Shown piece by piece: positions 2 to 24,101 of a stretch of DNA of 64,000 bases. Made by a program: the position numbers and the translations under genes. The stretch is from Pedobacter sp. ASV28. Lineage in GTDB: Bacteria; Bacteroidota; Bacteroidia; Sphingobacteriales; Sphingobacteriaceae. Under the pieces are notes generated by a model. The model ran no database searches. It was not told the origin of the DNA and was given only the letters and a program-made list of their open reading frames with translations. Location: assembly GCF_016428855.1 (NCBI RefSeq), contig NZ_JAELTN010000009.1:1-64000 (forward strand). Reading direction: 5' to 3'. Positions within the stretch are counted from its first letter, which is position 1. Each line of letters starts with the position of its first letter.

Positions 2-1402
2 GGGGTGCATGGAGGAACACAACCCGAAGGACAACATAATTTGAGATTGAGGGCAGGAAGAAGTTCAGGTGCATTGTCAGGTATTGAAATCACTTGCAGT
101 TGCGGAGTGCACAAAACAATGGCAGGTGCATTCAATGAGAATTCACTAACCAAAATTGGAATTACTTGTTCCGGTGGCAGACCGTGGTTGGGTCAGGAAG
201 TAGAAAGAAATAATGCTTCTCATTGCGGAGAAAATTTAATTGTAGTTCAAAAGGGTGCATCCAATGTTTACTTCTCACAGGTTCGCAGTTCAATTTATTT
301 GCCTCAATGGGAAAAATCAGTTGACAGAAGATTAGTTGAAGTGCTGGAAAAGAATTGGGGATTTCTCACAACCGGAATGGAGAACGGAAATTTTCAAAGA
401 ATGAGATTTGAATTAGTTGCAGAAAGAAATTTTGCAGAGGAGAAAAAAGAACTCTACACAGAAAAGTTATTGGAAGCAGCAACAAAAAGAATTTCAGGTG
501 CTGACAATTCAACGGCTGATGATTCGGAGGAGAAATACCGCAAGATGGAATACGATGCAATACTTGCAGAAGCAGGGGGAGAAAACCAAGATTTCTTTGT
601 TACGAAAAATCAGGCGAATACTTATGATGATTTGGAAACAGGCGGAGCAATCTGCAATGAATTTACAAGTATTGGTTTGTTGCATAAGCTGAGAGAGACA
701 AGGGCATTCGTTGGTTTTTCAAGATGGCTTCCAGATGACGGAAAATCTTTAACAGAGAAAAAGAACTTCATCAAACTTGGACAAAAAATTGAATGGCTTC
801 CGGCAATCGTTGTGAGAGGAGAAGGAGTATTCTTCGAGTTTAACGATAAACGTTTGAAAGCATGGTCAGATAATGAAGAAGTGAAAAAGAGAACAAAATT
901 CTTATCCGACAATTACAACAGACCACGGGAAGCAAAGGGACATAAACGCAGAGAAATCAAACCTGAATTTGTTTTGATTCATACCTTTGCCCATTTGGTG
1001 ATTAACCAATTCAGTTACGAATGTGGTTACGGAAGCTCTGCATTGAGAGAAAGGATTTATTGTAATCTTGAATTTCCGGACGACACCATGAATGGAGTTC
1101 TGATTTATACCGCATCCGGTGATTCAGAAGGTTCATTAGGTGGACTTGTAAGACAAGGCAAACCAGGCAATCTTGAAACAATAGTTTACAATGCGATTGA
1201 AAATGCAAGGTGGTGTTCAAGCGACCCAATCTGTATTGACAGTCTTGGTCAGGGACCGAACTCATGCAATCTTGCAGCATGTCATAATTGTGCCTTGTTA
1301 CCCGAAACTTGTTGTGAAGAATCAAATATGTTGCTTGACAGAGCAATGTTGATAGGAGAATTAGATAATCCTTCAATTGGATATTTTAATTTTAAAAAAT
1401 AG
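2..1402 (+). CDS. DUF1998 protein, DrmB-like (DISARM), 5' end outside window
   Basis: The frame is open to the left edge, so the true start lies upstream; about 465 residues are visible. The C-terminal half matches the DUF1998 family: a HTFAHLVINQ helix, a G-Y-x-S-x-x-L-R-E-R-I-Y segment, and a terminal cysteine cluster (CNLAACHNC ... CC) ending in N-x-x-LDR. An upstream pair, CSCG and C-x14-C, looks like a zinc site. In DISARM, DrmB works with the DrmA helicase and a DNA methylase to block incoming phage DNA. The neighbouring convergent methyltransferase supports that reading, but drmA and drmC are not visible, so membership of a complete DISARM locus is inferred. Other DUF1998 roles (for example MrfB-like helicase partners) are less likely given the methylase. 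Confidence 0.75.
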   Translation, partial: GVHGGTQPEGQHNLRLRAGRSSGALSGIEITCSCGVHKTMAGAFNENSLTKIGITCSGGRPWLGQEVERNNASHCGENLIVVQKGASNVYFSQVRSSIYLPQWEKSVDRRLVEVLEKNWGFLTTGMENGNFQRMRFELVAERNFAEEKKELYTEKLLEAATKRISGADNSTADDSEEKYRKMEYDAILAEAGGENQDFFVTKNQANTYDDLETGGAICNEFTSIGLLHKLRETRAFVGFSRWLPDDGKSLTEKKNFIKLGQKIEWLPAIVVRGEGVFFEFNDKRLKAWSDNEEVKKRTKFLSDNYNRPREAKGHKRREIKPEFVLIHTFAHLVINQFSYECGYGSSALRERIYCNLEFPDDTMNGVLIYTASGDSEGSLGGLVRQGKPGNLETIVYNAIENARWCSSDPICIDSLGQGPNSCNLAACHNCALLPETCCEESNMLLDRAMLIGELDNPSIGYFNFKK

Positions 1403-2639
1403 TAGATAAATTATCTGCTATTTTTTTGCCCATTAAAGGCGGTACAGCATTACCAATTTGCTTAAAAGCAGCGGTACGATTTGCTCCTTCTTTTATACCT
1501 TCAAAGTAAAAATCGTCGGGGAAAGACTGTAAGCGAGCAGCTTCTCTAACGGATATAGACCTATTTTGCAATTCATCAGGATGGATATAATAATGTCCAT
1601 CCTTTGCAATGTGTGCCACTACGGTTTGTGATGCATCCAAGTCTGCAGCTACTACTTTAAACCTATCAAAAAATGAGGTTCTATTTTCATGGGTTTTTAA
1701 ATAATCGGGCAAATCATTGTAGTTTAGACGTTCTTTTTGATTATTCCACTTATCAACAGCAATACGATAAATTTCCTTATCCTGTAATCTATGCGGTCTA
1801 GCTATATGTTGAGTAAGCGTGGTAATGCCGTTACGAATATGTGCAGCCGCTAAATAATCATTTCTATCTTGAGTGTATTCAGAGAATTTATCTGCTCCCT
1901 CTCCAGCTTGTATGATAGGCAAGTCGGCAAATAAACTAGATACGTTTGAAGTTAAGCCACTTTCGTAATTATCTAAATCTGGTAGATTAGGTATAAAATC
2001 TTGTCGCCAGCCAATGATGATTAAACGCCTACGTTTCTGTAATACGCCGAAGTTTTCTGCTTTCACTGAGAAGATATGGATGTTGTAACCTTTTTTGTTA
2101 AAAAGCTTTTCCATATTCTGTAAGTACACCCCACCCCCAGCAGATTTTAGTCCTAATACGTTCTCGAATACAAACATTTTAGGTTGGTATTTTTCTAGAT
2201 AATTAGCGTATTGCACATAAAGAAAATTACGTGGGTCTTTCTTCATGTTATGCTCAGACCTTGCTCTTCCTACTAGTGAATAAGCTTGACAAGGCGGCCC
2301 GCCAACAACGAGGTCTACCTCTCTGTTACCATCTAGACTTCGATCTATTTGGTTAAATATTTCAGTATTGTTTTCATCGCCAATACCTAAATTGATTACG
2401 GAAGTTAGTACTTCTTCAGGTATTTTACTGTAAAGCTCGTTTCTTGGAATTTCACCTCTCAGGTAAGAGAGGTAAGTATCAAACTGATTATTCTCTTTGA
2501 GGTGGTAATAGGCTGCTCTAGTCCTTAGTGAATAGGAAGCAGCTTCATCAATCTCTACATGGGCAATAGGTGTATAACCTGCCCGTTTGAAACCTTCAGA
2601 AAGGCCTCCTGCACCAGCAAAGAGATCGATATAGTTCAC
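1392..2639 (-). CDS. DNA (cytosine-5-)-methyltransferase, DrmMII-like
   Basis: The 415-residue protein carries the ordered C5-methylase motifs: I (IDLFAGAGGLSEGF, residues 4-17, AdoMet binding), IV (GGPPCQ, catalytic Cys117), VI (ENV, 159-161), VIII (QKRRRLIIIGW), IX (SVREAARLQSFPDDF) and X (QIGNAVPP). It transfers methyl from AdoMet to cytosine C5 in duplex DNA. It converges on the DUF1998 gene and overlaps its end by 11 bases. Class 2 DISARM uses a C5 methylase (DrmMII) to mark self DNA, so the pair may be one system, although a C5 methylase could also belong to a type II restriction unit with the nearby HNH nuclease. The start at 2639 is supported because motif I begins immediately after it. 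The target sequence cannot be read from the protein. Confidence 0.9.
   Translation of the reverse strand: MNYIDLFAGAGGLSEGFKRAGYTPIAHVEIDEAASYSLRTRAAYYHLKENNQFDTYLSYLRGEIPRNELYSKIPEEVLTSVINLGIGDENNTEIFNQIDRSLDGNREVDLVVGGPPCQAYSLVGRARSEHNMKKDPRNFLYVQYANYLEKYQPKMFVFENVLGLKSAGGGVYLQNMEKLFNKKGYNIHIFSVKAENFGVLQKRRRLIIIGWRQDFIPNLPDLDNYESGLTSNVSSLFADLPIIQAGEGADKFSEYTQDRNDYLAAAHIRNGITTLTQHIARPHRLQDKEIYRIAVDKWNNQKERLNYNDLPDYLKTHENRTSFFDRFKVVAADLDASQTVVAHIAKDGHYYIHPDELQNRSISVREAARLQSFPDDFYFEGIKEGANRTAAFKQIGNAVPPLMGKKIADNLSTIF
1400..1427. terminator. bidirectional terminator between convergent defence genes
   Basis: TAGTAGATAA (1400-1409) pairs with TTATCTGCTA (1411-1420) with one mismatch. A run of seven T follows on the + strand and an A/T-rich tract on the other side. 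The hairpin begins at the stop codon of the DUF1998 gene and covers the 11-base overlap zone with the methyltransferase gene, so it can end both transcripts. Confidence 0.55.
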
Positions 2640-3011
2640 GATTAATATAGATAAAAACGTAAAGATACGAAGATTTATATAAATCGTTTCAAAAAGTGGG
2701 ACGAACGTAAGGTAATATTTGCAACTTCATTATGTGAACGTCATATTCAAATAACCTTGTATATGTTTTGCCATATGGATCCAGTGCTTTTCACTAAAAT
2801 GCCAACGCTCATTCTAAGTAAGTTAGAAATACCTTGTATCGAATATATCTTAACATATTTTGAAAAGGAAATTTCATCAATTTTAATAATACGGCTTAGA
2901 TTTGCTGTCTAAACAAAATATAAAGAATGCTTTTTCAGATTCCAGTGATCGATCAAATCAATGTTAAAAATAACTTTTGTTTCCGTAAGCTTTTCTTTTT
3001 GCAGTCATTAC
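2640..3011. other. intergenic stretch without a recognisable gene
   Basis: AT-rich sequence between the methyltransferase start and the HNH gene end. It must hold the methyltransferase promoter. No convincing ORF, repeat or strong hairpin was seen. Confidence 0.4.
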
Positions 3012-3962
3012 CTACCCCTTAAACACCTCTCCCCTATGCCAAGCCAAAGCTTCCTGCGCGGGGTAATGGTTTTGTTGTTGCGGTAATATGATGCGCTTCC
3101 CTTTTAATGCGTTGAGTGCATAAGGATGGGTTGTATCTTCAGTTACATGTTGGGATACTAAGATGCGGTAGTTTTCATCGATACTGAGCAGGCCACGGTC
3201 GAAAGCTCGATGCATGTTGGGGCAAAGGGCAATGCCGTTGGTACGGCTATCATTAAAACTTAGGGCAAAGGGAATGATATGGCAGGCATCAACGAAGTTA
3301 TAGTTAAAAGAATTGCTCAGCTTCATTCCCGTGAAACTACATTGATAATCATAGGCATTCGTTACCCAGCGCTGGAATAAACCATCACGTACAATAATTT
3401 CCTCGGTAGTATATACTCGTCGTTTGCCATATTTTGGTGCAGCATCATTCAAGATACTTTGGGTCTGTAATTGCAGATATTCTTTACCAACCTGTTTTGC
3501 AGCCCGAAAGAAAACTACTTGTTCTGGGAAGTAGGTGTCTAATAATACTTGTCGCAAAAACTCCCTACTTTGGGCATCTAGTAGAAGTAACCAAAGCTCA
3601 TTAGCTAAAGCACCAAATGCACATGCTTCAGCTAATTTACTTAAAGACTTAATGGGCTGGTTAATTTGGTAACCTGGCTTAGGGTGAAGCAGCCAAAAAG
3701 ATTTCCCGTCTACTCCATCGTTCTGCAAATAGTAAAATGGTTGGGTAAGGTCTTCAATGTTGGCTGTAGTAACCAACAACTGCCAGTTTTCTTTAAAGGT
3801 ACCTACCAATTGGGCATCTACCAATATACGGTTATCGGTTACGATGCCTTTTTCGATGAGCTCGATGAGGGTTAACAGCAAAATGGGCTTATGTGGTGCC
3901 GCACCGTATGGCGTGGATCCACGTTTAAGATGTGAAAAAGCTTTGGCGTATTTTTGGAGCAA
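3012..3962 (-). CDS. HNH endonuclease, putative restriction enzyme
   Basis: The 316-residue protein has two parts. Residues 1-150 resemble the N-terminal recognition region of COG3440-type predicted restriction endonucleases, including the PHKPILLLTLIELIE segment near residue 23; relatives of this region can bind modified (for example phosphorothioated) DNA, but that is not shown here. Residues about 207-260 form an HNH_2-type nuclease: CSFTG, DACHIIPF (His228), TNGIALCPNMHRAFD (Asn242, His251). It is expected to cleave DNA in a Mg-dependent way, perhaps recognising modified phage DNA. It sits 372 bases upstream of the methyltransferase on the same strand. Fragments of its 3' end recur three times in the next 5.5 kb, so this looks like the surviving member of a small array. 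Confidence 0.8.
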   Translation of the reverse strand: MLQKYAKAFSHLKRGSTPYGAAPHKPILLLTLIELIEKGIVTDNRILVDAQLVGTFKENWQLLVTTANIEDLTQPFYYLQNDGVDGKSFWLLHPKPGYQINQPIKSLSKLAEACAFGALANELWLLLLDAQSREFLRQVLLDTYFPEQVVFFRAAKQVGKEYLQLQTQSILNDAAPKYGKRRVYTTEEIIVRDGLFQRWVTNAYDYQCSFTGMKLSNSFNYNFVDACHIIPFALSFNDSRTNGIALCPNMHRAFDRGLLSIDENYRILVSQHVTEDTTHPYALNALKGKRIILPQQQNHYPAQEALAWHRGEVFKG

Positions 3963-4679: not shown

Positions 4680-7250
4680 CTAAAATTTAATTATGGTTTT
4701 ACTGTCTTGTTCTTTTTGCCCTATAAGCGTTAAAACATAATAACCAGCGGTATAATTAGCTAAATTTAGCTTTAGGGAATGATCTGTGTTCTGCAACTGT
4801 TGCTCTATCAATTTTTTGCCATTAATATTGCTTAATATCGCTTTTTGATATTTACCTGCCTGAAAGCTGATATTGCTCCAATGATTAGTAGGGTTTGGAT
4901 AAACATTTACTATAGAGCTACCCATACCGAAAGTAAATGGCGCTACACCTATCTCTTTCTGTTTTCCATCATGATCTATCTGTACCAAACGGTAATAACT
5001 GTTACCAGCTAATGGATTGGTATCATAAAACACATAGTGTTGCTTTAAGTTACTATCTCCTCCTCCTTTTTGGGAACCGATAAACACAAATTCGCCTTCA
5101 TCTCCCTTTCTGTAAACATCAAACCTAAGGTTATTTTTCTCTTGTTGTGTCGTCCATTCCAATTTGGCACTTTGCCCTTGCGCCTTCACTTTAAAGCTTA
5201 AAAGTTCCACGGGCAATGCCGCTTGCCGATTAATGTTTATCGTGTAGTTTTTAATGGTAGTTCCGTCTTGTGCCGTTACCTTTACCGTAACGGTATTTTG
5301 GCCATCGCTTAAATTTATAGCATTGCTAGGCTGCGCACTTACTGCCGCCATGTCATTAATGGCAAGCGTGGCATTTAGCTCCTTTAGCACCGCGGTAAGC
5401 GTAACGGAAGTAACAGTGCTAGCTACCGCTATATTGTAGCTCAATGTATTGCTGTTAAACAGTGGATTTAATGTCCCCTCGCTAAGGTTTAAACTAGCAA
5501 GTAAGGCATTGGCAGAACGATGGCTACTTTCATAAGCGCCCAGATCTAAACCATTAAATTGTATACGTTGTGCACCTGCCAAATCTGAAGTTACCCCTGC
5601 AATAAAACTGGCATCGCCAGCATTAATAGCTGCGCTGCCTGCCTGTAGGTTAAAATTACCACTGGCTTGGTTAACAAACAAAGGATCTATATTCTGATTC
5701 AAATCTATCCCCTCTTTATAGCCCTGCGTAATGTTATTTTTTGCGACACTGGTACTGCCCTCTTCAGCTACATCTTTATATGTATCGGCAATATTGCCCC
5801 ATATAATGTTATTGTAAATGGAGGCCTTAGCATTGCCGCTATAATTATAGTTATAAATAGCACCACCACTACTGGCTTTATTGTTATAAAAAGTATTGTT
5901 AACTAAGCTTGCGTCCAATGTAGGGTTGGCTGTACCGTTATTAAACACTGCCCCGCCATAATTCGCTTCGTTGTTGTAAAACAAACAATTTAGCGCATTA
6001 AATGAGCTGGTAGTGGCATTATAAATGGCACCACCAGTAGCTAAAAATTCGGTTTTAAGCGCTGTTGAGCTCAAAAATGGATGTATTAGCAATGAAATAT
6101 TGGCACCCCAACTACTAGGATTATCATATCTGTACCATATGTTGCTGCTTGTTTTTTCCCAAGTAGCCGATGGATTGCTTTGACCACTGGCATTACTTAC
6201 AATGCTAAGTACGTCTTTAACCGAGGAAGTCCATTGCAAGTCGGTTAAATCTACACTAATAAATATTTTTTTTGAGGCTGGCAATTCTAGTGGAGTTTCA
6301 AAATCGATGTAGGTGTAAGTATTTGCCTGAACATCGTCCATAATGGTACGCATTGTTAAGTTTTTGCTACCTATTAGAGCTCCGGGTGTTCCACTGGTGC
6401 CGTTGTAAATTTTAACTGGCACCACTTTATTTGGATTACTGCTCTGTGCCCTACCAAAACCAATATAGATATAGTGTAAATACTTCTCCGTTCTAGCAGA
6501 AAGATCAAAATACATGGCTTTTTCTTTATCAACATATTTATTCACACCGTTTATCCACCCACTCACTTCGGCACTTGGATCCAAATAATAGTTAGTAATT
6601 GTCCAATTTGTGGGCATTGGATAGTTAGCACTATAAAGATTATCAAAACTAGCCTTGTTTTGATTAAATATGCTATTGCTCACACTGGTTTCTCCCTGAG
6701 CAATGTATATTGCACCTCCCACTACAGCTGTGTTGTTTTCAAATTTACATTTGTTTATTTGCGGGTTACCGCTGGCAATAGTAATAGCCCCGTAAGTGGA
6801 ATTACTTAGGTGTAATCCATCAAGAATAATGGAGGTAGTGTTAAGCGTTGGGTTAATATTAATTAGACAATTTTTCAGCGTAGTATTGGCAGTTATTCTT
6901 GTAGCATTGGTACTATGCATTAAGCTTTCGTTTCTAAAGATAACACTAGCTTCTGCACCTGCAAAACCCCCATATAGTTTCACTGCCTTGGTAATATTGA
7001 TACTGGCAGTTAACTTGTATTCTCCCGCAGCAATATAGATCTCATCGCCGGCATCGGCCACATCAATAGCAGCTTGTATATTACCCAAGGCATTATTCCA
7101 AGAGGTACCATTACCAGAAGCACCTGTCTTAACAAAACGTATGACCTGCGCATGAATAGATAGCGAAGAAAAAAGGATAAGTACCGGCAATAAAACACAT
7201 TTGTGATTTGTTCTAAAAAGAAAGAGGATTGAATTTAGATTTTTTCTCAT
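4680..7250 (-). CDS. T9SS-exported right-handed beta-helix surface protein
   Basis: The 856-residue protein has an N-terminal signal peptide ending near LSIHAQ. A parallel beta-helix region starts with the VKTGASGNGTSWNNA and QAAIDVADAGDEIYIAAGEY motifs typical of polysaccharide-lyase-like choice-of-anchor proteins and includes repeated N-N-x-A/S-GGAIY turns. Then come a cadherin-like beta-sandwich (about 580-680, SYNIAV ... DGTTIKNYTININ), the common LPVELLSF/YYRLVQIDHDG domain, and a type A T9SS sorting domain (VYPNP ... IIKF). It is expected at the cell surface or secreted, possibly binding or cleaving glycans; no catalytic residues can be assigned. Direct repeats flank the gene on both sides and a long hairpin follows it. 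It may be a mobile surface-protein cassette. Confidence 0.8.
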   Translation of the reverse strand: MRKNLNSILFLFRTNHKCVLLPVLILFSSLSIHAQVIRFVKTGASGNGTSWNNALGNIQAAIDVADAGDEIYIAAGEYKLTASINITKAVKLYGGFAGAEASVIFRNESLMHSTNATRITANTTLKNCLININPTLNTTSIILDGLHLSNSTYGAITIASGNPQINKCKFENNTAVVGGAIYIAQGETSVSNSIFNQNKASFDNLYSANYPMPTNWTITNYYLDPSAEVSGWINGVNKYVDKEKAMYFDLSARTEKYLHYIYIGFGRAQSSNPNKVVPVKIYNGTSGTPGALIGSKNLTMRTIMDDVQANTYTYIDFETPLELPASKKIFISVDLTDLQWTSSVKDVLSIVSNASGQSNPSATWEKTSSNIWYRYDNPSSWGANISLLIHPFLSSTALKTEFLATGGAIYNATTSSFNALNCLFYNNEANYGGAVFNNGTANPTLDASLVNNTFYNNKASSGGAIYNYNYSGNAKASIYNNIIWGNIADTYKDVAEEGSTSVAKNNITQGYKEGIDLNQNIDPLFVNQASGNFNLQAGSAAINAGDASFIAGVTSDLAGAQRIQFNGLDLGAYESSHRSANALLASLNLSEGTLNPLFNSNTLSYNIAVASTVTSVTLTAVLKELNATLAINDMAAVSAQPSNAINLSDGQNTVTVKVTAQDGTTIKNYTININRQAALPVELLSFKVKAQGQSAKLEWTTQQEKNNLRFDVYRKGDEGEFVFIGSQKGGGDSNLKQHYVFYDTNPLAGNSYYRLVQIDHDGKQKEIGVAPFTFGMGSSIVNVYPNPTNHWSNISFQAGKYQKAILSNINGKKLIEQQLQNTDHSLKLNLANYTAGYYVLTLIGQKEQDSKTIIKF

Positions 7251-8808: not shown

Positions 8809-9369
8809 TTACTTAAATGTAAGGGTAACTTTATGCGCTGCTGTTTTCTCTACATCTACTGTTGCGTCGATACCAATTCCCCATATTTCGAACTCTACAC
8901 CAGCAGAGCCAGTTTTTTTCAAGCTAAAAGATAGCGCTACAGAGAACTCTTTTTTAGATAAACCTGCAACCCCAGTGCTTGCCGCAGCCCATTGTTTTGA
9001 TGCGGAAACAACGGCATCTTTTAAATGCGTCTCAAATGAAGGAGATACCATCTCCTTTTGATCGCTTTTCTCATAACTAAAAGTTAAGGTAGTTGATTTT
9101 TCTATTTGCCATTTTTTAGAGGCTTTGGCAATGATCTTAAAGCCACCACCTCCAGCTTTATCATAAATGGTACTCAATGCAATCTCGGCAGATTGTAATT
9201 TAGGCTGCATACTACCATCAAGCTCTTCAGAAGCTCTTTCTAAACTATTGTTGATTAAGGAAACAATCCCTTTTAATTCGAAAGCTTCCACTTTATCTTC
9301 TTGTTTTTGGGCATGCGAAACTCCTAGCGACATTACCAATGTCAGTAGAAAAAATAAAATTCTTTTCAT
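8809..9369 (-). CDS. secreted protein with two tandem Trypco2-like domains
   Basis: A signal peptide (MKRILFFLLTLVMSLGVSHAQ) precedes about 165 residues that form two similar halves. Each half has an amphipathic helix (FELKGIVSLINNSLERASEE; ETHLKDAVVSASKQW), a strand with alternating residues (SAEIALSTIY; KEFSVALSFSLKKTGS), a glycine-rich turn followed by F-K/E-I, and a final T-L-T-F strand. This order matches the trypsin-co-occurring domain 2 (Trypco2), known from NTP-dependent conflict systems, where it is normally cytoplasmic. Export to the periplasm or surface would be unusual. No trypsin-like protease gene is visible nearby. The family call is by eye and needs a profile search. Confidence 0.55.
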   Translation of the reverse strand: MKRILFFLLTLVMSLGVSHAQKQEDKVEAFELKGIVSLINNSLERASEELDGSMQPKLQSAEIALSTIYDKAGGGGFKIIAKASKKWQIEKSTTLTFSYEKSDQKEMVSPSFETHLKDAVVSASKQWAAASTGVAGLSKKEFSVALSFSLKKTGSAGVEFEIWGIGIDATVDVEKTAAHKVTLTFK

Positions 9370-13223: not shown

Positions 13224-15509
13224 TTAAAGCTTAATCATTTTCTTTACCACTGTCATAGAGGAATTACTTAATCGGAGTAAATAATTATTTGGCTTTAAAT
13301 AAGAAATATCGATGATTGCCTCATCATCTTCTGAGCTTACAGACAGTGTTTTTAAAATCTTCCCATTCATATCTAATATTTCTATCCTGGTAAAAGGATC
13401 ATTAAATTTCACTTTAATAAAGTCTTGTGCAGGATTCGGGGAAATTAAAACCTGTGCTTTTTCTTTTAAATCGAAATTTAAGGATCTGGTCCCAAGGTCA
13501 TTTACTTTGCCATTATTATCAATTTGCATTAACTTATAATAACTCGCCCCATGAAATGGGTTACGATCATAAAAAGAATAATTATTGCTAATTGAAGTAG
13601 TCCCATTTCCTTTAATTGAACCAATAGTCAAAAACGTGATCCCATCAGTTGATTTTAAGATTTCGAACCGTTGATTATTATTTTCGGAAGCCGTAGACCA
13701 AACAATTTTAGCATAATTAGCATCTTTTTTGACGCTATAATTTATGAGGGTTATTGGCAAAACCTGTTCTGTATTAATACTATAATTACGAGAAGCTGAA
13801 TAGGGCCCGGGACTTGTTGAAGCATCGGTCGCGGTCACCGTAAAGGTCGAGATCCCACCTGCCGTTGGGGTGCCCGACAGCGTACCCGTATTTGAAAGGG
13901 TAAGTCCATCTGGCAATAACCCTGCCGTAACTTTGTAGGTGTATGGAGAGGTCCCTCCCGAAGCGGTGATCGTTTGGCTATAGAACGAGCCTACCGCCCC
14001 ATCTAGTAGCACAGCTGGAAATATCTCGATGGTTGGGGCTTCGTTTACCCTGGTGACGGTTAGGGTATAGGTTTTTGTGGTTATCTCATTTTCAGCCGTA
14101 ACCAAGATCTCTATCACGTTAGCTCCAACGTCCAGTGCCAAAGCACCGGATGAAGAACCGCTTGTTAGTGTAGTATAGGCATTTCCATTAACTCGAACTT
14201 TTATCGTTGCTCCAGCATGAGCCTTAGTTGGTGTAATTGTGGTAGACGTGGTTGCATAGGGAACACTAGCCGTATACACTGCTGTAGCGGGGTCAAATGT
14301 AGGTGATAACCCAGCTGCGGTTGTGCCAAGTGCCGATAGATCTGCATTGTTTGATGCAATAAGAATGGTTGCGGAAGGGGAACTTGCTCCGGCAATGTTC
14401 CCTGGAATATCCTGCGCAGTGCTTGCGGCTACCGAAATGCCTAATGTACCCCATCCACTAACGCCAGTTAATTTCGCCGTATAAGTTGAACCGCTTCCAG
14501 ATAATATTAAAGAGGTGTATGCGGCTGTACCCGTAGTATTGACAGTGATATCGCCCGAAGAAAGCGATGAATAACTAAAATTGGGATCTACGTAAGCTAT
14601 AGTAAAGGATGCATCAGCACCAGGGGCAGCTGTAACCGCTGTTGGGGTGATGTTGATTACGGGAGGTGTTTTGTCAAAAATCAAAACTGTACCGAAGTCC
14701 GTATTCGATTGTTGCCTTACATTTCCAGCAAGATCGGTTGCCGAATATGTCCATGGAATATTACCTTCGGTGTCACCTGTGACCAAGCTATAGGTAGCTG
14801 TCCAATTTTTATTTCCATTAGATGCCACGGCTGTTACAGGATGTCCAGCAATAGCAATTGTTATGGCTTGAAGAGCCTCATTAAAGCCCACAGAAAGTGT
14901 GATCATATTGCCAACCTTAGCGTATTGACTTGAATAACCATTGTTCGAAAAATAAGAACCAGAGACTAAAGTTGGGGCTAAATGATCAAAAGTGTATACC
15001 TCTCCTGTTGTATAGGCTGCACTCACATTGGGGGTTACTCCCGTTGTACCGGTAAAGTCAAGGCGTAGAGTGCCATTGCCCACAATTGAGTTAATCGGAA
15101 CCGTCCAAGTGGCACCAGAACCGGTTGGTGTACCTATAGAACCCGTAACACCCGAAGTAGTTAATGTAAAATCGCTTGCATCTACTCCTGAAACTGGTTC
15201 AGAGAAGGTAACGGTATAATTAACAGTCGTAGCGTTGGTTATTTGGGCCTCAACCCTATTGATAGCCATTACGGTTACCGTTGCAATATTACTTGTTAAG
15301 CTTCCATCACTAATCTTATGGGTAAACGAATCAGGGCTAACACCTTTAAAATCAATAGCAGCTTGTGAATGAGCAGCGGCATTACCCCAGCCAATTCCAT
15401 CGCCCGTTGCGGTAGCCTTAACATAAACACCCCCATTGGCCTCGGGCATTTTTGCCCAAAGGGCAATAGCTGTTAACCAAATCATGCAAGTAAGTAATAG
15501 TTTTTTCAT
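13224..15509 (-). CDS. multi-domain Ig-like T9SS surface protein, N-terminus rearranged
   Basis: The 761-residue protein has a signal peptide, then residues 27-53 (VYVKATATGDGIGWGN ... QAAID) matching the opening of a beta-helix domain. At residue 54 the sequence jumps to the end of a cadherin-like repeat (SFTHKISDGSLTSNIATVTV). Several Ig-like domains follow, then a cadherin-like beta-sandwich (NADLSALGTTAAGLSPTFDP), a putative-Ig He_PIG-type domain (LPDGLTLSNTGTLSGTP), the LPITLINYSVK/YYKLMQIDNNG domain and a T9SS type A sorting domain (SPNPAQDF ... MIKL). It is probably a surface adhesin. The abrupt switch at about position 15351 suggests an in-frame deletion that removed most of the beta-helix. 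Confidence 0.75.
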   Translation of the reverse strand: MKKLLLTCMIWLTAIALWAKMPEANGGVYVKATATGDGIGWGNAAAHSQAAIDFKGVSPDSFTHKISDGSLTSNIATVTVMAINRVEAQITNATTVNYTVTFSEPVSGVDASDFTLTTSGVTGSIGTPTGSGATWTVPINSIVGNGTLRLDFTGTTGVTPNVSAAYTTGEVYTFDHLAPTLVSGSYFSNNGYSSQYAKVGNMITLSVGFNEALQAITIAIAGHPVTAVASNGNKNWTATYSLVTGDTEGNIPWTYSATDLAGNVRQQSNTDFGTVLIFDKTPPVINITPTAVTAAPGADASFTIAYVDPNFSYSSLSSGDITVNTTGTAAYTSLILSGSGSTYTAKLTGVSGWGTLGISVAASTAQDIPGNIAGASSPSATILIASNNADLSALGTTAAGLSPTFDPATAVYTASVPYATTSTTITPTKAHAGATIKVRVNGNAYTTLTSGSSSGALALDVGANVIEILVTAENEITTKTYTLTVTRVNEAPTIEIFPAVLLDGAVGSFYSQTITASGGTSPYTYKVTAGLLPDGLTLSNTGTLSGTPTAGGISTFTVTATDASTSPGPYSASRNYSINTEQVLPITLINYSVKKDANYAKIVWSTASENNNQRFEILKSTDGITFLTIGSIKGNGTTSISNNYSFYDRNPFHGASYYKLMQIDNNGKVNDLGTRSLNFDLKEKAQVLISPNPAQDFIKVKFNDPFTRIEILDMNGKILKTLSVSSEDDEAIIDISYLKPNNYLLRLSNSSMTVVKKMIKL

Positions 15510-18293: not shown

Positions 18294-19607
18294 ATGCGGA
18301 AGATTAACGTTTCTCTATTGTTCAAATGCACCTTGGGCTTGGTATTTTTGCTAGGCAGCCCAAAAACAAAAGCCCAACTCGCCGCTGGCGACATTCTCTT
18401 TACCGGCTTCGATTCTCAACCGGGAGTATCGACCACAGGACCACGATTTGATCGGGTATCTTTCGTTGCATTGAAAACAATTCCCGTAAATACGGTGATC
18501 TATTTTACCGACAGGGGTTACAAGGCTAACACTTGGTATCCTGCCAACGCCAACACCGAAGGGACGGTGAAACTTACCGTAACCACCAAAATCAGCGCAG
18601 GAAAAGAAGTATCGCTGATCTTAACGCCAGAGAACAATAGCACCAATTATTATGCGGCTACGCTAGACGGTGCGAGCATCGGTACTTTGGTACAGCAAAC
18701 TTCTCGATTATCATTATCCAATAGCGGAGACCAACTTTTTGCCTTCCAAGGTGGAAGTGGCGATCCAGGTGGCAATGGTGCTGTGCTCATCGCCGGCCTA
18801 CACTGGAACGCCAGCCAAACAGGAAGTTCCGGAAATTATACCATGCTAACTACAGACGCAGGCTGGGACAATCTAGGCAGCTTAGTACTTGGCCCAAACA
18901 ACTCTGATTTGCCACCCACTTTGGTGGCTGGACAAAGTGCCTTTTGGTTAGGCTCCCTTGTTATGGATCCCAGTGGGTACAATTATAATGTGGAGTCTGC
19001 AGCATTTAATGGTGCCGACAAACCCTACACTACAGCCAGTCAGATCCGCACTGCATTGCTGAAAAGAAGCAACTGGGTAAGGTATGCCTTTGGCACGACC
19101 AACACCGAGGTAACCGTACCTACCAACCACTTTACCACAGTACTGCCCGTTACGCTCACCCAATTTACCGCAAACCTTAATAAGTTAGGAATCTTAAAAG
19201 TGGACTGGAAAACTGCCCAAGAAAAAAACAATAGCCATTTCATCGTAGAAAGTTCTAGAGATGGCAAATTTTGGAGATACCTGATTCGCAAAGACGCCCT
19301 GCCCAACAGCACTGCTGGCGCCACCTACCAAGTGGAAATTAATATGAGTACACTCGGCTTGGCAGGCTTTACGCTCTTAGGCTTGTTACTGTTGCCTTTC
19401 TCCAAAAAACGCTACCGCTGGTTTGCCTTCCTGGCAGTGTTGGCTGTACTTGCCACCTCTTGTGCAAAAAATAACGAGGCCAACCAGATCGACCTCCAAG
19501 CCGATCAACAGTCGGGCGATGGCAATGTTTTATACTTAAGGCTGGCACAGGTAGATAAAGATGGTACTACCACTTACAGTCAAACTATATTCGTAAAAGC
19601 ACAGTAA
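18294..19607 (+). CDS. secreted protein with an embedded two-helix cysteine cassette
   Basis: The 437-residue protein has a signal peptide ending KTKAQ, then a beta-rich domain (LAAGDILFTGFDS ... VIYFTDRGYK) seen in other exported proteins. At residue 284 it enters the LPVTLTQFTANL/FIVESSRDGKFW domain that normally precedes T9SS signals. Instead of continuing, residues 351-390 form two hydrophobic helices (GLAGFTLLGLLLLPF; FAFLAVLAVLATSC) split by KKRYR and ending in a lipobox-like Cys390. After a polar linker the missing half of the domain resumes (YLRLAQVDKDGTTTYSQ, from 414), and the protein ends without a T9SS domain. The same cassette occurs in the convergent neighbour at 19887. It may be a membrane-anchoring or sorting tag. 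Confidence 0.75.
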   Translation: MRKINVSLLFKCTLGLVFLLGSPKTKAQLAAGDILFTGFDSQPGVSTTGPRFDRVSFVALKTIPVNTVIYFTDRGYKANTWYPANANTEGTVKLTVTTKISAGKEVSLILTPENNSTNYYAATLDGASIGTLVQQTSRLSLSNSGDQLFAFQGGSGDPGGNGAVLIAGLHWNASQTGSSGNYTMLTTDAGWDNLGSLVLGPNNSDLPPTLVAGQSAFWLGSLVMDPSGYNYNVESAAFNGADKPYTTASQIRTALLKRSNWVRYAFGTTNTEVTVPTNHFTTVLPVTLTQFTANLNKLGILKVDWKTAQEKNNSHFIVESSRDGKFWRYLIRKDALPNSTAGATYQVEINMSTLGLAGFTLLGLLLLPFSKKRYRWFAFLAVLAVLATSCAKNNEANQIDLQADQQSGDGNVLYLRLAQVDKDGTTTYSQTIFVKAQ

Positions 19608-19839
19608 GGTTTCTTAACTATAATTTATTAAACAGGGCAAATGGCAAGGGCTAATAACTGCCAGCAATGATGCTGCGTACTTTGGTTTGGACCGAGCACA
19701 TTACAGCAATGCCTAAACTATAGTGATAGACTGGCAATGGGTGGAGGTTACTCATACTAACCAGGAGGAAGCCACTCCCCACATGCCAAGCATAACCAGC
19801 AGCAGACCAACAGAAAGCCGCTACAGATACCACAAAAAA

Positions 19840-19861
19840 GCCCATGGCCATAACCATGGGC
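19840..19861 (-). terminator. intrinsic terminator for the convergent minus-strand gene
   Basis: GCCCATGG (19840-19847) and CCATGGGC (19854-19861) form a perfect 8-base stem. On the minus strand it is followed by six T. It lies 26 bases past the stop at 19887. The rest of 19608-19839 shows no gene. Confidence 0.75.
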
Positions 19862-19886
19862 AGCGTATTAGAGTATATAAAACCTA

Positions 19887-20942
19887 TTATTTCTTAAGGG
19901 CCACCACCATTTGGCTATAGCTGGTACTTCCATTTCTGTCTATTTGGGCCACACGAACATAGACCGGCTTAGTGGCAGAGACTACCCTTTCCAATCCTGC
20001 CGCCCCGTCTTTTTCCTTGGCGCAGGAAACCACCACCGAAACCATCAATACCAACATGCCCAGCCTTAGCAGTCTATTCCTGGTAGTGGGCAACAGCAAC
20101 AGTCCCAAAAGCCCAAAACCGGCCAGGGCCATACCGTCCCACTTGGTAGCGAAACTGTAGGCTAAAAGCCCCAAAGAACGTCCACCCTCTGCCTTAGAAA
20201 CAACGATGCCCAAATCCTGCCAATCTGTTCCATTCGCAGAAGCTTGTACCACAAAACGTTCATTATTGGTCTCGCTATGGGTGGTCCAGTCTACCTGTAG
20301 GCGGCCAGCACCAACAGTCGCATCAACCTCTCCAAAGCTTACCGGTAAGGCACCTGCCGAAACATTGGCAATGGTCATGTTTTTAAAGCCCAATATCTCT
20401 GGAAAATCAGCCACTGCAATATAGGATAATTCAATTCTGGCCACCCCGTTATAACCGGCCACGGGCCAAGGTGTGGTAAAAGGAATGTCCTTCAGCTTTC
20501 CGATTGCCCCCGCACCTATCTGTATGCTAGAGGAGATCTGGTGGCTGGCGATCTGTGCGCCGCTCTCATTGCGCAAGGTGATTACAAACTTGGAGTATGT
20601 CCATTTCTGATAATAGCTACCCGCAAAGCTATATAGGTCCATATCCTTTAGCGTAAAGCGCTTACATACACTGCCGCCCTCGGCCTTGATCACCGGATCA
20701 ACCTGCAAACCCTTACCGCCATCCCTTAACGCGTAGTATATACTGTTGTCACGGGAATCCAATGAGTAGGCATTGCTGACGGCAAATTTGTCTCCCTGTT
20801 TCTTAAACCCCACACCCCCACTATTGTCTGCACCCAGGTTACCAAAATGATAGGTCCCATCGGCCGTGCCGTTTTGTGCATGAGCCAGCTGAATAACAAA
20901 CATTAGGGCAAACAGCCCCATTAAGCGTAGATTTTTTTTCAT
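19887..20942 (-). CDS. secreted protein with the same embedded two-helix cysteine cassette
   Basis: The 351-residue protein has a signal peptide (MKKNLRLMGLFALMF ... AHAQ) and a beta-rich first domain of unknown family. The LPVSFGEVDATV/FVVQASANGTDW half-domain follows. Residues 271-307 are the cassette: MALAGFGLLGLLLLP, TTRNRLLR, LGMLVLMVSVVVSC (Cys307). The second half of the split domain returns at 327 (VYVRVAQIDRNGSTSYSQ) and ends the protein. The cassette is clearly homologous to residues 351-390 of the convergent gene, while the first domains differ, so the cassette behaves as a module. The start is divergent from a TetR regulator, with a palindrome between the promoters. Confidence 0.75.
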   Translation of the reverse strand: MKKNLRLMGLFALMFVIQLAHAQNGTADGTYHFGNLGADNSGGVGFKKQGDKFAVSNAYSLDSRDNSIYYALRDGGKGLQVDPVIKAEGGSVCKRFTLKDMDLYSFAGSYYQKWTYSKFVITLRNESGAQIASHQISSSIQIGAGAIGKLKDIPFTTPWPVAGYNGVARIELSYIAVADFPEILGFKNMTIANVSAGALPVSFGEVDATVGAGRLQVDWTTHSETNNERFVVQASANGTDWQDLGIVVSKAEGGRSLGLLAYSFATKWDGMALAGFGLLGLLLLPTTRNRLLRLGMLVLMVSVVVSCAKEKDGAAGLERVVSATKPVYVRVAQIDRNGSTSYSQMVVALKK

Positions 20943-21958: not shown

Positions 21959-23149
21959 CTATCTTTTAACAACCTTTATACTTTGATAATGCCCCTTTCC
22001 TTCAACGCTGAGCAGATAGATTCCGCTGGGATATTTTCCCAGATCCATATCCTTGCTGCTTTCGGTTTCGTATATGTTAAGCTGTTGTAAGACTTTGCCG
22101 CTTAAATCCCTCATCTGGAGCATGCTAAACCTCCCTGCTGCAAAGTTTATAGAGAGTTGCTTAGCAGTTGGGTTGGGATAGGCTTTCACTTCCAGTAACG
22201 ACAGGTTAAAACTTAGGGATTTTAGCCCCAACTCGGCAATGCTGCCATCATGGTCTACCTGCAACAATTGGTAGTAGTTAACACCGTTCACGGGTGATCT
22301 ATCGTAAAGGGAATAGTTATTGGGCCCGCCCGAAGTACCGGCACCGGACTGCTCTCCTATTTGTACAGTTTTTCCATTTCCATTACTACGATAGATGATA
22401 AACTTAGCATTGTTATGCTCGCTGGCCGTCTGCCATTGTAGCAAGGCATTATTTCCGATGGCCTTTACCGTGAAGGCAGTTAGCGAAACCGGTAGTGTGC
22501 CTATAATATTTATCGAATAGTCTTCGGTCTCTCCGTATTCTTGTGTACTATCACACGACTCTGCCCAAGTAGCAACTTCTGCTCCCACAGCAGCTACCCT
22601 AACCCTCATGCGTTTAATTCCGCTTACACCATTGCGGATAGGGATATTGGCCGATACCGTGCTGCCAGAACCTGTGCCCACAAAAGTAAATTCATCATTT
22701 TCGAAAATGCCATTGTCATTATAGTCGATCCATACGCTTACAGATTCACTGGACCATCCATTTCCCACACTTACCGCAATTGGATAGGACTGCCCAGCAG
22801 TTACCGAAGCGGCAGCCAAGGAAGTATAATCATTATACCCATCATTACCACAAGTAGAGGTATTGTCTATACCGGCGAACACTACCTTTAGAATATTATC
22901 CCGATCTGTACAATTGAGCACAGGTGTACAATATGCAGGAGGGGCCAGTGTGGCGATACCACTTTGGAACATCATAATGCCCATTGGGGCTGTATGAGTA
23001 AAATGATCAGATCTACTATGGTCTTTCGGCAATGGATAGACGGATTGAGCTTGGCCAAACCCATATTCTGCCAGAGGTACCAATGCAGTTTGGCAAAACA
23101 TTAAACTGGTACCTAGCATGGCAAATAGAGAAGTAAAAGTGTTAATCAT
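21959..23149 (-). CDS. GEVED-domain T9SS secreted protein
   Basis: The 396-residue protein starts with a hydrophobic segment (INTFTSLFAMLGTSLMFCQ) acting as signal peptide. A GEVED domain (about 95-215) carries its hallmark SVWIDYNDNGIFENDEF and QEYGETEDYSINI. Then follow the LPVSLTAFTVK/YYQLLQVDHDG domain and a T9SS type A sorting signal (AYPNPTAKQLSINF ... IKVVKR). GEVED proteins are often extracellular enzymes or adhesins, but no catalytic domain is present, so this one is probably a structural or binding surface protein. It converges on the TetR gene. Confidence 0.8.
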   Translation of the reverse strand: MINTFTSLFAMLGTSLMFCQTALVPLAEYGFGQAQSVYPLPKDHSRSDHFTHTAPMGIMMFQSGIATLAPPAYCTPVLNCTDRDNILKVVFAGIDNTSTCGNDGYNDYTSLAAASVTAGQSYPIAVSVGNGWSSESVSVWIDYNDNGIFENDEFTFVGTGSGSTVSANIPIRNGVSGIKRMRVRVAAVGAEVATWAESCDSTQEYGETEDYSINIIGTLPVSLTAFTVKAIGNNALLQWQTASEHNNAKFIIYRSNGNGKTVQIGEQSGAGTSGGPNNYSLYDRSPVNGVNYYQLLQVDHDGSIAELGLKSLSFNLSLLEVKAYPNPTAKQLSINFAAGRFSMLQMRDLSGKVLQQLNIYETESSKDMDLGKYPSGIYLLSVEGKGHYQSIKVVKR

Positions 23150-23282: not shown

Positions 23283-24101
23283 CTATTTAAACCAGGTCCC
23301 CATCAATTTAACAACGCGTTTGAAGAAAGAGGTTTTTTCAGGGGCCGATAGGGCTACACCTGCTACCCTGCCTGAAAAAGATGTAGCATTGGTGCCCATT
23401 GATATCGACTGTTTTTGTGCAGTAGGCGAAACGACCACAACTTCTCCCATCAGAAATTTTTCTGGAGCTAAGCTGATGGTTATGTTTTGGGCCGATTGGC
23501 CTAAAGTTACCTCTACTTGTTGATCTTCATACCCCAGGCCATTGATGAACAACTTCACTTTTTGTTTGGCAGCACCTTTTACCATGAGTTCAAACGTACC
23601 ACTATTGTTCGTGCTGGTCTTCAAATTCAAGCTTGGTAGGTTTACTATTGCACCATAAATTGGCGAAAGGTTTTCTTTTGCCCTCACCAATCCCTTTATG
23701 ATAAAGGTATCTTCAACGTGATTTGAATTCGACTGCAGCTTGCTATTGGCAGCCGGCGCCTGATATACCGTTGGCTTATCTGCGGCTTGCTGTGCCGAAC
23801 CTTTACAGGCCACAAGCAGGGCAATAAACGATGCCGCTGCTATTTTAAGACTAAACCTATGGTTAGGCACAAGGGGTACCGTTTCCTGATTAAGCTGATA
23901 AAACTGGACCTGATCCATACGACCGCAAACTTTCCCGGGCGCAGCTTGGAAATAATTCTTTAGCTCTGATATACTCATGCCGGCAAAATCAACTACTTCT
24001 GCACTGCAATGGTTACAAAACCTCCCCTGGTCGGTTTTACTCATTTTATGCCATTTTTGGCTACAGGGATTTGGAATATCGAGTTTAAGTTTTTTGCTCA
24101 T
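23283..24101 (-). CDS. membrane protein with N-terminal Cys motif and carboxypeptidase-regulatory-like domain
   Basis: The 272-residue protein begins with a Bacteroidota-typical Cys motif (PNPCSQKWHKMS ... GRFCNHCSAEVVDF, about residues 11-39), probably metal-binding and cytoplasmic. One membrane segment follows (SLKIAAASFIALLVAC, about 84-99). A carboxypeptidase-D-regulatory-like domain comes next (IIKGLVRAKENLSPIYGAIV ... ITISLAP, about 133-210), probably outside the inner membrane. The last part has GEVVVVSPT. Proteins of this layout are often of unknown function. The gene has its own upstream region of about 260 bases. Confidence 0.65.
   Translation of the reverse strand: MSKKLKLDIPNPCSQKWHKMSKTDQGRFCNHCSAEVVDFAGMSISELKNYFQAAPGKVCGRMDQVQFYQLNQETVPLVPNHRFSLKIAAASFIALLVACKGSAQQAADKPTVYQAPAANSKLQSNSNHVEDTFIIKGLVRAKENLSPIYGAIVNLPSLNLKTSTNNSGTFELMVKGAAKQKVKLFINGLGYEDQQVEVTLGQSAQNITISLAPEKFLMGEVVVVSPTAQKQSISMGTNATSFSGRVAGVALSAPEKTSFFKRVVKLMGTWFK

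Follow-up and report, generated by a model that had tools for sequence, protein, structure and literature searches.

The described systems closest to the element studied here include the MYXO-CTERM/myxosortase tails, in which the order is Cys-helix-Arg at the very end of the protein and the cut leaves the Cys on the N-terminal product (PMC11980579), and the lipoprotein export signal of Capnocytophaga, in which Lys is found mainly at position +3 and the optimum is C-X-K-(D/E)2-X (PMC5080379). We analyzed a 64,000-nucleotide stretch of Pedobacter sp. ASV28 (contig NZ_JAELTN010000009.1, positions 1 to 64,000; the window) in which two convergent genes encode proteins ending in a tail, here called the cassette, where the halves of a fibronectin type III (FN3)-like domain are separated by a hydrophobic hairpin with a lipobox-like Cys. 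We read this tail as a predicted split-domain lipid anchor and assign this reading a probability of roughly 0.6.

The cassette resembles MYXO-CTERM tails in its invariant Cys near the C-terminus, predicted lipidation, membrane helix, basic cluster and presumed surface anchoring, but its order is reversed to basic-helix-Cys, and the lipid would consequently be on the C-terminal piece. With Bacteroidota surface lipoproteins it shares a lipobox Cys and a Lys at +3, as also seen at SusD loci in these organisms; the surface lipoprotein signal lies at the N-terminus of the whole protein (PMC5080379), whereas that of the cassette is internal and its acidic pair is often incomplete. Type A cargo of the type IX secretion system (T9SS; PF18962/TIGR04183) carries the same domain before its T9SS tail, as in three proteins of the window, whereas the cassette lacks a T9SS tail and its domain is interrupted. 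Cut or incomplete domains joined by strand complementation, as proposed below, are known from the GAIN domain of adhesion G protein-coupled receptors and from donor-strand systems; these serve eukaryotic autoproteolysis or pilus assembly, in contrast to the internal lipoprotein signal predicted here.

The closest profile is NF058595 (invert_tail, lipo-invert putative C-terminal anchoring domain), which scores 14.3 and 14.7 bits against the two window proteins with a cut-off of 37 bits. At E ≤ 1 it matches 17/29 (best 1.4e-4) and 17/30 (best 0.0026) cassette tails, none over the cut-off, and no protein exceeds the cut-off in 148 and 395 Bacteroidota genomes (overlapping sets). In the window proteins its positions 26-73 of 113 cover helix 1, the turn, helix 2 and the Cys, with 40 positions following as in the cassette. 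Its name mentions neither the split FN3 domain nor the two-gene form described below, the comparison covering the profile and its name. Twelve of 30 sub-cut-off loci were opened, of which nine hold ordinary N-terminal lipoprotein signals and three nothing readable in the frame taken. Since NF058595 also weakly matches N-terminal lipoprotein signals, the profile probably stands for a signal of the lipoprotein type close to a C-terminus, and its name together with the hairpin matches indicates that a similar idea has already been named by curators. As for the known membrane-domain family considered in the initial annotation of this DNA, a known profile does match the hairpin, always below its cut-off. 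We found no paper using the NF058595 or lipo-invert name, and in titles and abstract openings among the matches listed a split-domain lipid anchor is not described, most subscription papers being outside reach. Weak Pfam matches to the tail, DUF4131 (hairpin) and F5_F8 type C among them (17 and 18 of 29 members, best E 0.0015 and 0.0003), were not used as family labels.

The two cassette genes of the window

The convergent open reading frames (ORFs) lie at 18294-19607 (+) and 19887-20942 (-) and encode 437 and 351 amino acids. Both proteins start with a signal peptide of the signal peptidase I type, read by eye (residues 1-28, 18294-18377, and residues 1-23, 20874-20942), and end in the same layout of first half-domain, a hydrophobic helix (helix 1), a basic turn, a second hydrophobic helix (helix 2) that ends in S-Cys-A-K, and second half-domain. 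In protein 1, the first half of the FN3-like domain (LPV...ESSRDGKFW...ATYQVEI; 19143-19340, from alignment and predicted fold) precedes helix 1 (LGLAGFTLLGLLLLPF, residues 354-369, 19353-19400, from sequence and alignment), the turn SKKRYR (residues 370-375, 19401-19418) and helix 2 with its lipobox-like end (WFAFLAVLAVLATS-Cys390, 19419-19463, Cys codon 19461-19463). The post-Cys linker and second half (AKNNE...YLRLAQVDKDGTTTYSQTIFVKAQ), placed by sequence and alignment, occupy 19464-19604. In protein 2, on the minus strand, the first half (residues 199-265, 20148-20348, from profile and predicted fold) is followed by helix 1 (MALAGFGLLGLLLLP, residues 271-285, 20088-20132, from sequence and alignment), the turn TTRNRLLR (residues 286-293, 20064-20087), helix 2 and its lipobox-like end (LGMLVLMVSVVVS-Cys307, 20022-20063, Cys codon 20022-20024), and the linker with the second half (AKEKD...YVRVAQIDRNGSTSYSQMVV, 19890-20021, from sequence and predicted fold).

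The hairpins thus span residues 354-390 and 271-307, and the split domain with a hairpin in both genes, as described in the initial annotation, was located as such. The first-half consensus is LPV...E.NN..F.V..S..G..W...Y, the same domain type that precedes T9SS tails, and the second-half consensus is Y-x-R-x-A-Q-x-D-x-x-G-x-T-x-Y-S-Q. A single significant BLASTP alignment joins the two proteins, covering the final ~155 residues (34% identity, 4e-11), so their first domains differ, as had been claimed. Neither protein matches a T9SS tail (PF18962/TIGR04183) in Pfam or NCBIfam at E ≤ 1, again in line with the earlier claim. The same annotation had counted four ordinary T9SS proteins with contiguous halves; contiguity held, but scanning part of the window ORFs yielded three (4683-7250, 13227-15509 and 21962-23149).

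The genome of this Pedobacter strain contains four full cassette copies (E 7.8e-101 to 1.2e-19), and these, together with many copies in other genomes, place the cassette beyond chance. The front parts of the four copies gave one weak match in an all-versus-all BLASTP comparison (P0001 versus L008, E 0.003, 66 residues) and nothing better than E 1 among the other pairs; the cargo of one copy is an NHL propeller. The cassette is found joined to differing cargo domains and outside its own genome, as expected of the independent module originally proposed. Three of the weaker places in this genome were fetched and re-read as possible extra copies, and none is a cassette.

Conservation, two-gene versions and predicted fold

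In an alignment of 29 tails both helices are strongly divergent, and invariance is limited to four columns, namely a Trp, the Cys (29/29), and an Asp and a Gly of the second half. We gathered 75 one-gene members by script, 66 of which remained after dropping those with ≥60% identity around the Cys; because the script accepted only hydrophobic stretches followed by a Cys, Cys conservation is not an independent count there. Of the 66, 65 have S/A/G immediately before the Cys (position -1), bearing out the lipobox-like character first noted, and position +3 holds Lys in 63, Arg in two and Asp in one. At least one D/E lies within +2 to +9 in 60/66. The 18 residues across the turn contain at least three K/R in 70/72 members and no D/E in 69/72. 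Of the 72 members with sufficient frame, 69 have an in-frame upstream match to the first-half profile (E ≤ 0.01), which was used in place of an overly strict regular expression (21/75 members). Frames are shorter than 150 amino acids in 7/75 members, one of them (the minus-strand copy of L101) solely because the locus ends. Fourteen additional loci missed by the script were read by eye; thirteen fit, including one with a stop codon in the second half (L189), and one (L236) does not.

Controls behave differently from the cassette positions. Ten hydrophobic stretches from the strain's own DNA that lie inside proteins and end in Cys have S/A/G at -1 in one case and K/R at +3 in none, and 35 N-terminal lipoproteins have Lys at +3 in five and Arg in two. 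Lipobox candidates at SusD loci of four carrier genomes, however, have Lys at +3 in 31/34 (30 loci sampled, 29 yielding candidates, some from adjacent genes). The counts at -1 and +3 and this likeness to SusD indicate that the internal Cys sits in a lipobox followed by the C-x-K signature of the same organisms' surface lipoproteins. Helix 2, with a basic n-region, a hydrophobic stretch, a small residue at -1 and Cys at +1, is best read as a predicted internal lipoprotein signal of the signal peptidase II (SPII) type. This signal is internal in the one-gene members and N-terminal in gene 2 of all five two-gene pairs.

These pairs, in which the module is encoded by two adjacent same-strand genes, occur in five genomes of two genera (G443, G701 and G541 of g119; G676 and G601 of g257). 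In g119, gene 1 encodes 333-336 amino acids with a signal-peptide-like start and stops directly after the first half-domain, and gene 2 encodes a 57-64 amino acid lipoprotein with its own N-terminal signal, the Cys and the second half; the signal peptides of the two-gene versions were judged by eye. The genes are spaced by 26 (G443), 27 (G701) and 3 (G541) nucleotides. In g257, a different gene 1 of 335 residues is followed after 64 (G676) or 100 (G601) nucleotides by a lipoprotein of 51-52 amino acids. The first-half profile matches gene 1 in all five genomes (E 4e-9 to 3e-7) and the second-half profile matches gene 2 in the three g119 genomes (E 7e-10 to 1.5e-8). Gene 1 has neither helix 1 nor any hydrophobic helix after the first half, and in each of the five pairs the gene 2 product has S/A at -1, Lys at +3 and 36-44 residues from the Cys on. 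Compared by sequence, the two-gene products correspond to the pieces predicted from an LspA cut of the one-gene form, helices aside. A mature lipoprotein of 36-44 residues would, we infer, have little role beyond completing its partner.

AlphaFold2 models of the window tail (A9, 14 alignment rows) and of a tail from the genus Niabella (A10) reached a mean predicted local distance difference test score (pLDDT) of 76.6 and 80.1 and a predicted template modeling score of 0.62 and 0.66, respectively. In the window tail the first half scores 86-96 and the strands of the second half 82-95, with the hairpin and linker at 39-60; the Niabella tail has the same layout with two clear helices. In both models, whose tails come from different genera, mean block pLDDT exceeds 80 in each half and stays under 65 in the hairpin and linker. 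The halves appear to pack as a single FN3-like fold in these models, with the hairpin inserted between predicted strands 5 and 6, which corresponds to the E-F loop of an FN3 domain. VIA-align, run as a second look on the chains also used for Foldseek, aligned structures spanning both halves, namely an Fn3-like protein of 96 residues (3mpc_A, Z 9.6, root-mean-square deviation (rmsd) 2.5, 89 aligned) and the FNIII domain of Ihog (2ic2_A, Z 9.4, rmsd 2.7, 94 aligned); its top row is a pectate lyase (3b8y_A, Z 10.6, rmsd 2.2, 85 aligned).

Proposed route to the envelope and alternative explanations

A lipoprotein signal peptide of basic-helix-Cys order needs only Lgt and LspA. Our working model for the cassette starts with the N-terminal signal peptide, which would carry the precursor into the periplasm. 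Helix 1 would then re-enter the inner membrane, leaving the basic turn cytoplasmic, and helix 2 would exit again; the charge pattern gives helix 2 and the Cys the topology expected of a lipoprotein signal peptide. As the lipobox suggests, Lgt would lipidate the Cys and LspA would cut before it, yielding a lipopeptide of ~32-48 residues (31-47 residues follow the Cys in one-gene members) with the last strands of the FN3-like domain. This lipopeptide would dock on the other half-domain and hold the cargo non-covalently by strand complementation, a step supported by the structure models and by the natural two-gene versions. The Lys at +3, as in SusD loci, points to the surface-lipoprotein route by which the lipopeptide may reach the outer membrane; the one-gene form would require a second cut or release at helix 1, which the two-gene form would not. 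The docked lipopeptide would serve as an envelope anchor, probably at the surface. The two-gene versions render this central claim directly testable. If true, Gram-negative bacteria would have a way of lipid-anchoring a protein at its C-terminal domain by the general lipoprotein machinery alone, the annotation of such proteins would change, and the natural split-FN3 pair could be used for surface display.

Several observations weigh against this model. After the LspA cut, helix 1 and helix 2 would still tether the N-terminal part to the inner membrane, and no enzyme was found for a second cut, which leaves a gap in the route of the one-gene form to the surface; without a second cut the complex would remain at the inner membrane. 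On the structural side, Foldseek gave no match at E ≤ 0.001 in the PDB (best 0.0026, with many FN3 domains listed), the FN3 assignment depends on Z scores of 9-10, and the AlphaFold inputs were shallow (14 rows) and single-chain. Against a database of 2,135 sequences, the second-half match of gene 2 is weak in G676 (E 0.0025) and G601 (E 0.0038). The acidic pair of the Capnocytophaga signal is mostly incomplete, position +4 being D/E in 13/66 and position +5 in 24/66, and L236 lacks an intact lipobox. Conservation is somewhat overstated because the member filter fixed the Cys and the search profiles weight Cys and Lys, and the internal-Cys control is small (n = 10).

One alternative is a two-helix inner-membrane anchor, with the Cys lipidated in place, uncut or serving another role. 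The hairpin by itself suffices as an anchor, neither a second cut site nor an enzyme was found, and NF058595 is described as a putative C-terminal anchoring domain only. A plain anchor, however, needs neither the S/A/G at -1 (65/66) nor the Lys at +3 (63/66), and the two-gene versions retain Cys, lipobox and Lys although helix 1 is gone; we therefore consider this explanation unlikely. Still less probable is a sorting tag like PEP-CTERM, GlyGly-CTERM or midcut-by-XrtH, where a dedicated intramembrane sortase would recognize helix 1 with the basic cluster, cut mid-protein and modify the N-terminal part, the kind of likeness to which the initial annotation had drawn attention. The Pedobacter-type helix 1 (LAGFGLLGLLLLPxxRNR) resembles such tails, and weak matches exist: to LPXTG_anchor in 8/30 members (best E 0.0032), singly to MYXO-CTERM (E 0.093), PEP-CTERM, GVDTG and LAVTG models among the same 30, and singly to LPXTG_anchor and midcut-by-XrtH among 29 members. 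Helix 1 is, however, weakly conserved in the Niabella type, and the tightest constraint lies at the Cys of helix 2 and beyond.

As a co-occurring protease for such a tag, exosortase (PF09721, E ≤ 0.01) has no match in four of seven carriers (G000, G282, G153 and G412); G247 and G213 have one each over the cut-off, G272 has one below it, and four of nine non-carriers have one over it. Exosortase was thus rejected as a general partner, and with the SPII-like polarity of helix 2 this speaks against a tag with a dedicated protease or transferase. The initially suggested new envelope-anchoring or sorting system is supported as an envelope anchor, its most likely role, and not supported as dedicated-sortase sorting. 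There is very little to recommend a functionless relic left when a lipoprotein gene fused with, or inserted into, a T9SS cargo gene. A decayed copy (G247:C6) and broken or short copies (7/75 frames below 150 amino acids, the L189 stop, the lost lipobox of L236) would fit such an origin, but 75 members keep the same positions while their helices diverge, and 69/72 keep the in-frame first half upstream.

Genomic distribution, the Niabella group and neighboring genes

A profile from the four copies of the Pedobacter genome matches 16/151 genomes of its own family and 15/395 across the phylum at E ≤ 0.001; matches better than 1e-10 occur in six genomes of the family set and two of the phylum set, with G000 in both. 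The search in other Bacteroidota that the initial annotation had called for thus found many copies, and the cassette is not confined to its own genome, although it is absent from most sampled genomes. The fifteen loci whose records carry organism names belong to Pedobacter, Nubsella and Niabella, plus single records labelled Flavobacteriaceae and Flammeovirgaceae. The Flammeovirgaceae locus (L126) was rejected because it encodes an ordinary T9SS protein; in the frame read, L123/L124 are broken. In a second family, a profile of helix 2 and the second half (A6) matches 202/294 genomes at E ≤ 5e-4, although many among the matches listed are contiguous T9SS domains aligned over the last ~30 positions only. 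Strong matches cluster in genus g114, here called the Niabella group, with 13 in G412, 18 in G643, 15 in G711 and 18 in G799, where 21 candidates were scored for each genome. The fetched loci contain at least 11, 18, 9 and 17 distinct lipobox-bearing tails, respectively, some in short frames. Two neighboring cassette genes of G412 (C1:1153756-1156078; L217 and L220) have tails identical over the last 115 residues. The decayed gene of G247 (C6:32749-32989; L150) is split into short frames.

Six carriers from the strain's own family have 66, 35, 53, 38, 17 and 37 PF18962 tails, and there are 22-38 in seven second-family genomes with two-gene or single one-gene versions; none is found in the four Niabella-group genomes, which are 99-100% complete. 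SprA (TIGR04189) is matched in 13/17 genomes, and the four unmatched are exactly those of the Niabella group. With both SprA and PF18962 unmatched in 4/4 genomes, the Niabella group appears to lack T9SS, as judged from these two markers. Its cassettes sit on proteins with T9SS-type domains and seem to take the place of the T9SS sorting tail. In the fullest version of our proposal, a separately lipidated peptide of ~32-48 residues, arising from an internal signal or from a second gene, would complete the FN3 fold for envelope display and replace the T9SS tail in the Niabella group, a combination we hold tentatively, at slightly under even odds. If true, it would account for the display of T9SS-type cargo by a lineage without T9SS. 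The apparent loss of T9SS in this genus seems to merit separate study. Within the strain's own family, carriers had many T9SS tails (17-66 in six genomes) compared with non-carriers (2-7 in nine genomes), a correlation that was not used as evidence, the non-carriers having been taken in list order.

A further internal lipobox-like site is present in the window at 23283-24101 (-), where a 272 amino acid protein has a cytosolic-looking, Cys-containing N-terminus, a hydrophobic stretch ending LVAC-KG without Lys at +3, and a CarbopepD_reg_2 domain. At 1395-3962 (-), a C-5 cytosine DNA methylase adjoins an HNH endonuclease, possibly a restriction-modification pair. The protein at 8812-9369 (-) has a Trypco2 (trypsin-co-occurring) domain, a type met close to defence genes.

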